NCBI GenBank assembly: GCA_020438865.1
Contig: JAGQTU010000004.1
Span: forward strand, 1-40,026
DNA: 40,026 bases
Direction of reading: 5' to 3'
Origin: Mycobacterium sp.
Lineage (GTDB): Bacteria > Actinomycetota > Actinomycetes > Mycobacteriales > Mycobacteriaceae
Numbering within the stretch: position 1 is the stretch's first letter; every line of letters starts with the position of its first letter. Positions 18,804 through 20,923 of this stretch are shown here, piece after piece. Below the pieces are notes generated by a model. It saw only the letters and a program-made list of their open reading frames with translations. It made no database searches and was not told the origin of the DNA. Made by a program: the position numbers and the translations under genes.

Positions 18804-20039
18804 TCAACCGAGGATGGTGGTGACACCGAGGGTGAGCACGCACAGCACCACCACCGCGGTGGTCATCGCGTAGACGACGGTCCAGCTGCGGCTGATCGCG
18901 AAGCGTCCCATCAGGTCGCGGTCGCGGGCGATGCCCACCATCGCGAACAACAGCGGGATCAGCAGCACCGCGTTGAGCACCTGGGTGCCCACCAGGATCG
19001 CCACCAGCGGCGCATCCGGGGTAAGCACGACGAACGCACCGATCATCGTCACTATGCCGTAAGTCAGGTAGAACGTCTTGGCCTCGCGGTAGGGGTCGTC
19101 GACGGCGGCCTCGACCCCCGCGTACTCGCACACCGAGTAGGCCGTCGAGAGCGGCAGGATCGAGGCCGCGAGGAAGGCCGCACCGATCAGGCCGATGGCG
19201 AACAGGGTGGACGCGACGTCCCCCGCCAGGGGCTCGAGTGCGACGGCGGCGTCGGCGGCGTCGGTGATGCTGCGGCCGTCGCGGTGCAGGGTAGCTGCGC
19301 ACGCCACCACCACGAAGAAGCCGATCACCCCGGTGAGCACCGCGCCGGTGACGACGTCGACCCGCTCCAACGGCAGGTCCTCGGTGCGCAGCTTCTTGTC
19401 GACGGCGTAGGACTGCATGAACGACAGCCCCCACGGCGCCAGCGTGGTGCCCAGGGTGGCGGTGATCATCGCGATCGCATCCCCCGTCATCGGCATGGTC
19501 GGCACGAACGTGCCGTACAGCGCCGCGCCCCAGTCCGGTTTGGCCAGCAGGCCGGAGGCCACGTAGGCCAGGAACACCGCCGACAGCAACAACAGAAAGT
19601 GCTCGACGCGGCTGAAACTGCCCCGCAACACCAGCAGCGACACGGTCAACGCCGCGGCGGGCACGCTGATGAAGCGGCTGATACCGAACAGTTCGAATCC
19701 GGCTGCAATACCGGCGAATTCGGCGCAGGTGGTGCCCACGTTGGCCACCACGAGAGCGGCCAGCACCGCGCCGCCGACCCCGACGCCATAGCGCTGACGC
19801 ACCAGTCCGATCAGCCCCTGCCCGGTGACGACTCCCATTCGGGCGGCCAGGGTGTGGAAGATCACCAGCGCGACGGTGGACAGCAGCAGCACCCACAGCA
19901 GTTGGTAGCCGTGGTCGGCGCCGAGTACGGAGTACGTCGTGATGCCGGCCGGGTCGTCGTCGGACAGGCCGGCCAGCAGCCCGGGACCGACGACGGCCAG
20001 TAGCGCGCCCAGCCGGGCGCGGCGGACGGTGAGCGTCAC
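18804..20039 (-). CDS. Nramp-like divalent metal transporter with non-canonical metal site
   Basis: A polytopic protein of 411 residues from GTG 20039, about 11 membrane helices, Nramp/SLC11 fold. The helix 1 motif reads DPAG (Asp29-Gly32) instead of DPGN. The helix 6 motif reads LAPW (200-203) instead of the Met-Pro-His type. Loss of Asn and Met is, as I recall, what distinguishes Nramp-related magnesium transporters (NRMT) from Mn/Fe Nramps, so mntH is not a safe name. GTG 20039 overlaps the upstream stop (GTGA); ATG 20090 is possible but overlaps by 55 bp. Coupling to a MgtE_N protein supports a magnesium role. Confidence 0.85.
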   Translation of the reverse strand: MTLTVRRARLGALLAVVGPGLLAGLSDDDPAGITTYSVLGADHGYQLLWVLLLSTVALVIFHTLAARMGVVTGQGLIGLVRQRYGVGVGGAVLAALVVANVGTTCAEFAGIAAGFELFGISRFISVPAAALTVSLLVLRGSFSRVEHFLLLLSAVFLAYVASGLLAKPDWGAALYGTFVPTMPMTGDAIAMITATLGTTLAPWGLSFMQSYAVDKKLRTEDLPLERVDVVTGAVLTGVIGFFVVVACAATLHRDGRSITDAADAAVALEPLAGDVASTLFAIGLIGAAFLAASILPLSTAYSVCEYAGVEAAVDDPYREAKTFYLTYGIVTMIGAFVVLTPDAPLVAILVGTQVLNAVLLIPLLFAMVGIARDRDLMGRFAISRSWTVVYAMTTAVVVLCVLTLGVTTILG

Positions 20040-20923
20040 GAGGTCGATCCGCTTGACGCCGAGGCGCTGCGGTGGCGGCGGCGCGGCCATACGTGCGAGC
20101 GCAGCAGCCGTCGGCCGCGCAGGGCGGGCATGTGCTGCAGGGTGGCCCGCCAGCGGCCCGCGTGCTCGGCGGGCATGGCCGTCACGATGCGGGTGGCCAG
20201 CGCTGCCGGCATGGCGCGCAGGACGCGTTCACCGACCGTCGGATGCGCGGCGCGGACGACCTCGGCGGCCACCTCCGGGTTCCGGGTCGCGAGGATCTCG
20301 GTCGCCGACTCGGTGTCCACCCGGCTGACGAGTTCGGCCAGCCCCCGGGCGTCGAGGTGGTGCACCGCCGAGCGAGGGGTGCCGAGTTGGACGGCATGGC
20401 CCCGCTCGGAGGTCAGGTGCAGATCCGACCACGCCACCAGGTCCTCGCCGGACGGCAGCACCGCGGGCAGGTGCAGCCGACGCAGCACGCCGCCGAAGCC
20501 CACCTCGACACCGATCAGCTCGAGGTGCCCGTCGGCGGTCGGGGTCAGCACCACGTCGGCGACGCGGGCCAGCCGCTGGCCGACGACATCGACGATCTGG
20601 GTGTCCAGCACGTCCCGGGCCAGCAGGATCTCTTGGTCGGCCAGCGCCTCCGCGACGTCGTCGACCGCATAGCGGTCAGCACCGGCGGCGCCGACGCCCA
20701 GCACCAGTTGGTCCCGCCCGACGTTTGCCACCGCCGCCCACGGCACCAGCAGCAGCGCGCCGCGCCCCCGCTTCACCACCACCCGGTCCACCAGGTGCGG
20801 GCCCGAGTCCTCCACCAGGTCGGCGGTGAGATCGGCGAGCCGGCCGATGACGCGGCCGTCCGGACCCAACACGTCCTGCCCGGTCACCCCGCTGAGGAAC
20901 AGCACGCACGAAGCATGCCGCAT
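20036..20923 (-). CDS. soluble PRC-barrel plus MgtE N-domain protein, putative metal sensor/partner of the Nramp-like transporter
   Basis: A 295-residue protein with no membrane helix. Two PRC-barrel-like segments (GVTGQDVLGPDGRVIGRL at 12-29, and residues 102-127 with VVGQRLARVADVVL) are followed by a superhelical MgtE_N-like domain (about 188-258: LDARGLAELVSRVD, ATEILATRNPEVAAEVV, VLRAMPAALATRIVTAMP). In MgtE this domain, with CBS domains, senses Mg2+ and gates the channel. Here CBS and channel parts are absent, and the next gene, overlapping by 4 bp, is an Nramp-like transporter. The C-terminus is Arg/Ser-rich. Start ATG 20923, after GGGGGA. Confidence 0.82.
   Translation of the reverse strand: MRHASCVLFLSGVTGQDVLGPDGRVIGRLADLTADLVEDSGPHLVDRVVVKRGRGALLLVPWAAVANVGRDQLVLGVGAAGADRYAVDDVAEALADQEILLARDVLDTQIVDVVGQRLARVADVVLTPTADGHLELIGVEVGFGGVLRRLHLPAVLPSGEDLVAWSDLHLTSERGHAVQLGTPRSAVHHLDARGLAELVSRVDTESATEILATRNPEVAAEVVRAAHPTVGERVLRAMPAALATRIVTAMPAEHAGRWRATLQHMPALRGRRLLRSHVWPRRRHRSASASSGSTS

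Follow-up and report, generated by a model that had tools for sequence, protein, structure and literature searches.

A Mycobacterium locus pairing an NRMT-type transporter gene with the gene of a tandem-PRC, MgtE_N-containing partner protein

Introduction

The NRMTs are Nramp relatives in which the ion site carries the changes N to G, M to A, A to T and His to Trp (PMC8806188). The methionine of the classical Nramp site is credited with disfavouring Ca2+, and EleNRMT transports both Mg2+ and Mn2+ with no H+ coupling (PMC8806188). Most NrmT genes adjoin a gene for a homologue of the N-terminal cytoplasmic domain of MgtE, for which Shin et al. (2014) proposed either cytoplasmic feedback regulation or a chaperone role (PMC4072509). 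In that work, the NrmTs of Clostridium acetobutylicum rescue without needing the partner, and Acp2977 of Acidobacterium capsulatum fully rescued a Mn2+ transport mutant, a Mg2+ transport mutant being rescued only with low millimolar Mg2+. The A. capsulatum pair was considered a likely manganese transporter, and co-expression of its partner did not improve the rescue. An M-box precedes only a subset of NrmTs, members without it being described (PMC4072509). In MgtE itself, the Mg2+ sites of the cytoplasmic part span more than one domain (N domain, CBS domains and plug helix), and the ligands of TtMgtE include E59 (Mg7), D91 (Mg4) and D95 (Mg6) (PMC5882242).

The pairing of an NRMT with an MgtE-like protein and the suggestion of a regulator were therefore already published in 2014, so that the central idea of a first-pass annotation of the DNA described here, a Mg2+ transporter with a separate sensor protein, is a rediscovery. 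The role of the MgtE-like protein had been left unsettled in 2014. The term "PRC" has no occurrence in the main text of Shin et al. (PMC4072509), and no paper on a reduced partner or on a PRC core was found in the open-licence literature searched. Two points are new relative to that literature: a reduced, CBS-less partner with a basic tail, and a constant PRC-barrel core. Joint inheritance of the pair is a further result of the present analysis.

The locus and its host

The window, i.e., the whole stretch of 40,026 nucleotides analysed, belongs to a contig of a 4.96-Mb Mycobacterium assembly of 366 contigs that is 90.9% complete. Two overlapping genes are considered here.

18804..20039, minus strand: transporter gene P0003, 411 amino acids, GTG start, NRMT-type member of the Nramp family (Pfam Nramp, 277.6 bits)
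20036..20923, minus strand: partner gene P0002, 295 amino acids, soluble, with the order PRC, PRC, short MgtE_N, basic tail
20036..20039, minus strand: GTGA overlap of the partner stop and the transporter start, in the window sequence

On one side of the pair, on the opposite strand, lie genes named by eye as an alcohol dehydrogenase and an acyl-CoA dehydrogenase; those on the other side were likewise named enoyl-CoA hydratase and short-chain dehydrogenase. By theme they look unrelated to the transporter pair. They are also less well kept than the pair across 80 related loci, several of which are short: the enoyl-CoA hydratase is found in 14, the alcohol dehydrogenase in 19 and the acyl-CoA dehydrogenase in 27. 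The host assembly encodes two CorA proteins and one canonical MntH; a search of the same sequence, about 91% complete, found neither an MgtE channel nor an M-box. A plasmid search returned 94 matching records, all under 60% identity, and a close relative is thus absent from those plasmids.

The transporter belongs to the NRMT side of the Nramp family

Among solved structures, EleNRMT (PDB 7qia) is the best relative of the transporter with 304 bits, the next of the Nramp chains listed reaching 103 bits and the rest at most 86. Alignment to EleNRMT and MntH places the ion-site motifs as follows.

19944..19958, minus strand: TM1 ion-site motif D28-D29-P30-A31-G32
19431..19448, minus strand: TM6 ion-site motif T198-T-L-A201-P-W203

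Compared with EleNRMT, E. coli MntH and one Deinococcus Nramp chain, all four NRMT changes are present, with Gly32 at the TM1 Asn, Thr198 at the Ala, Ala201 at the TM6 Met and Trp203 at the His. Asp29 and the TM3 Glu107 are retained, and the classical motifs DPGN and MPH are absent. This alignment confirms the motif changes first noticed in the sequence, DPAG for DPGN and LAPW for MPH. Within TM1, DDPAG in place of NDAGG is a clade-specific change found in 80/80 named loci, a count that is partly so by construction, one of the two scan patterns having contained DDPAG. These named loci are the best 80 of 307 relatives found by the scan.

A tree of 73 rows sets three MntH/Nramp rows apart by a branch of length 3.77 with 100/100 support. 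On the wider NRMT side, the window transporter falls in a clade of 38 rows supported at 100/100. The node joining the EleNRMT clade with the window clade (59 rows) has a support of 82/68, and since some long branches also meet, the branching inside the NRMT side is unsure. Regarding family models, the transporter passes NCBIfam NF037982, "Nramp family divalent metal transporter" (53.6 against a cut-off of 50), and stays far below the cut-offs of two MntH/Nramp subfamily models (127.5 against 430 and 62.8 against 272.5). Phylogeny had been named in the first-pass annotation as the test of an NRMT-like rather than a Mn/Fe Nramp identity; the tree, together with bit scores and motifs, upholds the former.

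A protein from a Mycobacterium metagenome bin (L033) shares 96% identity with the transporter. Records titled Bifidobacterium breve or Acidobacteria (L052, L059, L066) hold transporters 78-85% identical to that of the window and close to the mycobacterial ones, with L066 lying inside them in the tree. The titles of these records look wrong.

The partner combines two PRC barrels with a shortened MgtE_N superhelix

An AlphaFold2 model of the partner (pLDDT 85.7), fold comparison, Pfam and alignment delimit its parts.

20633..20908, minus strand: PRC barrel 1, residues ~6-97, from the AlphaFold2 model and fold comparison
20381..20632, minus strand: PRC barrel 2, residues ~98-181, Pfam PRC at 100-153, signature RDVLDxQIVDxxGxRLxRVxD
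20126..20380, minus strand: shortened MgtE_N superhelix, residues 182-266
20072..20113, minus strand: basic tail RRLLRSHVWPRRRH, conserved, residues 271-284, in the position of the CBS domains of other partners

Residues 5-97 match the folds of PRC proteins and reaction-centre H subunits, and the match to 8qzo_F covers residues 6-183. The second barrel scores 104 bits with a purpose-built HMM, of which the window is one of the training rows. The Pfam match to MgtE_N is just above cut-off, its fold being supported by fold comparison. The protein ends about 30 residues past MgtE_N, and neither a CBS pair nor a plug helix was found in it by Pfam or alignment. A soluble PRC/MgtE_N protein coupled through GTGA to the transporter and free of CBS domains and channel, as originally described, is thus what sequence, Pfam and fold comparison together give.

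Transporter and partner are inherited as a unit

The partner stands directly upstream of the transporter in 78/80 named loci; in the other two, the contig ends 187 and 524 bases upstream of the transporter. The genes overlap by ATGA (36 pairs) or GTGA (35 pairs) in 71 of these 78 pairs, and in six of the other seven pairs an in-frame ATG starts at the last stop base or two bases on. Within the genus, 148 genomes were surveyed (transporter at E<=1e-80, partner at E<=1e-10). The transporter occurs in 27 genomes and the partner in an identical set of 27, adjacent in all, a number that does not represent 27 independent events as these genomes share ancestry. Neither gene was found without the other among the 148 genomes, and two of the 27 hold a second, weak partner match elsewhere. 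This co-occurrence is informative because the spread within the genus is patchy. Transporter and partner are therefore inherited as a unit, the partner being more variable in the genus (51-67% identity) than the transporter (77-86%). The supposition that MgtE_N/PRC genes adjoin NRMT-like genes elsewhere was borne out by both surveys, in 27/27 genus genomes and 78/80 loci.

Some loci show other features around the NRMT gene. A c-di-GMP-II riboswitch lies downstream of it at L012:2926-2991 (plus strand), and a 5-formyltetrahydrofolate cyclo-ligase gene adjoins it in three of the genomes scanned (L013:2743-3318, L027:2779-3387 and L151:5501-6523).

Tandem PRC barrels are the steadiest companion of NRMTs in the phylum

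A survey of 296 genomes of the phylum gave Nramp matches at E<=1e-40 in 80 genomes (90 rows). The core NRMTs are the 60 rows with at least 225 bits; the 30 weaker rows, among them G283, a fragment next to a partner gene, are uncounted. MgtE_N is found next door in 44/60 core loci (42 plus the window and G038), and a purpose-built MgtE_N HMM applied to the DNA gives the same 44/60. The tandem-PRC signature, detected by the HMM of the second barrel, is found on the same strand at 57/60 core loci; 18 of the 60 genomes supplied training rows for this HMM, and 39/42 of the others match, many of them related to those rows. The PRC gene is upstream only in 40 loci, downstream only in 13 and on both sides in four.

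The 16 core loci without MgtE_N consist of 13 with a downstream PRC-only protein, G203 at a contig edge, and G121 and G058 with none. The PRC-only loci come from 13 genomes (L199, L200, L201, L149-L151, L159-L165), and their proteins are mostly of about 190-215 amino acids, with one open frame of 300. A structure model of one of them, built on a 24-row alignment, has a pLDDT of 91.8, and its predicted strands are read as two barrels. At G121 and G058 (loci L152 and L153; 60% and 56% identity, DDPAG), no PRC or MgtE_N gene was found beside the NRMT, and the subunit would thus be dispensable somewhere.

As controls, 14 Nramp-like loci were examined, comprising canonical MntH, the outgroup and the next-nearest Nramps. 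PRC passes in two and reaches 1.1e-3 in a third, and MgtE_N is found in three (L141, L202, L203), where an MgtE_N-like and mostly also PRC-like gene lies upstream. All of these loci come from the group adjoining the core NRMTs, and the pairing thus extends a little past the core. Four states are seen in all: PRC-MgtE_N-CBS, PRC-MgtE_N-tail, PRC only and none. The tandem PRC barrel is the steadiest NRMT companion in the phylum, ahead of MgtE_N.

The window clade has a basic tail in the position of the CBS half

An alignment of 88 partners separates 27 with CBS domains from 61 without. The ligand positions were placed by counting in an alignment of L008 with 2yvx. In the CBS-bearing partners, E59, D91 and D95 are acidic in 27/27, 27/27 and 26/27 rows, respectively; in the CBS-less partners, the corresponding counts are 44/61, 45/61 and 0/61, with the D95 position occupied by Arg (37), His (10), a gap (5) or other residues (9). 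The window partner keeps two of the three acids, with Glu, Glu and Arg at these positions.

After the superhelix, 51/61 CBS-less rows carry the tail consensus R-R-F-L-R-S-x-V-W-P-R-R-R-H, as counted with a loose pattern of which one or two matches look off-motif. In 51 rows chosen by a motif pattern, codons are conserved at positions 1 and 2 and variable at position 3, as for one Arg kept in 51/51 rows with a third-position entropy of 1.57 bits; this choice of rows accounts for the conservation of some columns and leaves third-position freedom unaffected. Conservation through this tail is lower in the overlapping frame of the transporter than in that of the partner. An upstream ATG at 20090 was rejected as the transporter start on that ground, and the GTG at 20039 is the preferred one. 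The idea that a C-terminal Trp is left over from the CBS-bearing form was also considered and rejected as too weak, Trp followed by Lys/Arg/Gln near the C-terminus occurring in only 11/27 CBS-bearing partners.

The CBS half was probably lost rather than gained, since CBS domains occur on the outer tree branches. In the best tree, the CBS-less rows do not form one clade, L087 falling apart from the others, and a single clade of them is not rejected (AU p 0.21). With CBS, no CBS and no partner scored as separate states, parsimony counts three changes. The absence of the CBS domains, the Arg or His at D95 in 47/61 rows and the basic tail in their place make an MgtE-style Mg2+ sensor unlikely in the window clade. 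The first-pass reading that the window partner senses Mg2+ as MgtE does is not supported: CBS and plug are absent, and the D95 position is acidic in 0/61 CBS-less partners. For the CBS-bearing lineages, retention of the MgtE ligand positions suggests a sensing role.

At the gathering score, an M-box is absent from the window, from the host assembly and from 13/13 clade loci tested. Two CBS-bearing relatives, L010 (96 bits) and L018 (94 bits), have one where the partner gene begins; they make up 2/20 loci, many of which are cut off within the partner gene.

The same module beside other membrane proteins

At L139:893-4846 (minus strand), a frame of 1318 amino acids fuses PRC-MgtE_N-CBS to a complete P-type cation ATPase, and L140:881-4834 (minus strand) has an equally long frame that contains MgtE_N. 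In three actinomycete loci scanned (L117, L119 and L122), the gene of a PRC-MgtE_N-CBS protein directly adjoins that of a DUF1003 protein. The genus of the window also contains a PRC-MgtE_N-CBS frame (L130), and the genome of the window itself an MgtE_N-CBS part (L133). No natural fusion of PRC/MgtE_N with an NRMT was noticed among the open-frame lengths listed. The ATPase fusion and the DUF1003 neighbours indicate that the module is not tied to NRMTs, and this arrangement supports its reading as a putative portable regulator of membrane transport.

Proposed function and alternatives

The locus probably encodes a two-gene unit for divalent-metal uptake, composed of an NRMT carrier and a dedicated cytoplasmic PRC-based subunit. 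The predicted ion site comprises Asp29, Gly32, Thr198 and Ala201, with Trp203 and Glu107. Two residues of Mn/Fe Nramps are missing here, the Met that serves as a soft ligand and the His of the proton path, and by analogy with EleNRMT the transporter would therefore carry Mg2+, Mn2+ or both in partly hydrated form and independently of protons. Translation of the partner is probably coupled to that of the transporter, for which it would serve as a dedicated subunit in the cytoplasm. Of its parts, the tandem PRC barrel is the best candidate for binding to the transporter or the membrane because most NRMT loci retain it; the other elements (MgtE_N, CBS, membrane segments) would be regulatory add-ons. 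In the window clade, the CBS half appears to have gone, with a short basic tail in its place, so that any remaining gating would have to work without the full Mg2+ site set of MgtE. Counting against the two-gene reading are G121 and G058, with no partner gene found beside the NRMT, the A. capsulatum partner that gave no better rescue and the C. acetobutylicum NrmTs that rescue without theirs (PMC4072509), the higher variability of the partner, and a module that also occurs beside control Nramps, DUF1003 and a P-type ATPase.

A broader and more tentative proposal, which we regard as possible but do not favour, is that NRMTs use a tandem-PRC docking subunit that gains or loses metal-sensing modules (MgtE_N, CBS, membrane segments). 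Mycobacteria and their relatives would retain a sensor stub, the basic Trp tail would replace the work of the CBS half, and control would be new and of a non-MgtE kind.

The foremost alternative concerns the cargo: Mn2+, or another transition metal, may be the physiological substrate of an NRMT/partner unit, as proposed for A. capsulatum. This is conceivable, though below an even prospect. The NRMT-like Acp2977, which has an MgtE-like neighbour and is described without an M-box, rescued the Mn2+ mutant (PMC4072509), EleNRMT also carries Mn2+ (PMC8806188), and the host already has two CorA genes; on the other hand, the host also has a canonical MntH, and the site lacks the Met that disfavours Ca2+ (PMC8806188). 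Pointers to Mg2+ are the NRMT site and the M-boxes of the two CBS-bearing relatives, and the pointer to Mn2+ is the A. capsulatum result, the NRMTs tested being split between the two metals.

Alternatively, the partner might be an assembly, stability or membrane-placing factor rather than a regulator, a role that fits the PRC pair, not the sensor domains, being the steadiest element, and the resemblance of PRC to reaction-centre H subunits, which are seated on a membrane complex. We hold it to be rather unlikely, as the MgtE ligand positions retained in CBS-bearing relatives suggest sensing there. The model first read from this DNA, in which a separate MgtE-like Mg2+ sensor closes a Mg2+ transporter, is improbable: the MgtE_N fold, the window acids at E59 and D91, the ligand positions kept in CBS-bearing partners and the M-boxes of L010 and L018 speak for it, but the window partner lacks CBS, plug and, like every CBS-less row, the acid at D95, and neither window, host assembly nor the clade loci tested have an M-box. 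That the transporter is an ordinary MntH-type Mn/Fe Nramp whose motifs have drifted is scarcely credible, since membership in the Pfam Nramp family and the NF037982 match are outweighed by the tree, the bit scores, the motifs and two subfamily models far below cut-off.

For the preferred two-gene uptake unit, the three natural partner states and the two partnerless lineages offer a ready-made deletion series for partner function, and this series points to the PRC pair as the putative docking part. Such proteins should not all be annotated as magnesium sensors.

Comparison with known systems

Compared with the NRMT/NrmT proteins (Ca_c0685, Ca_c3329 and EleNRMT, 7qia), the window transporter shares the four ion-site changes and the TM3 Glu of EleNRMT, and like most members (PMC4072509) it has an MgtE-like neighbour gene. 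It differs from EleNRMT by DDPAG instead of NDAGG in TM1 and by its place in the separate 38-row clade (100/100). The likeness to Ca_c0685 and Ca_c3329 is by description, and no M-box was found in the window. Also by description, the A. capsulatum pair Acp2976/Acp2977 resembles the window in having the MgtE-like gene immediately before the NRMT and no M-box (PMC4072509).

The cytoplasmic domain of Thermus MgtE (2zy9/2yvy) shares its N-domain superhelix with the partner over 85 residues at 2.2 A. Unlike Thermus MgtE, the partner lacks the CBS pair, the plug helix and the channel, has Arg at D95 and carries two PRC barrels in front. The actinomycete PRC-MgtE_N-CBS proteins encoded beside DUF1003 keep the CBS domains that the window partner lacks and have a different membrane neighbour, whereas the domain order of their first part is that of the window partner.
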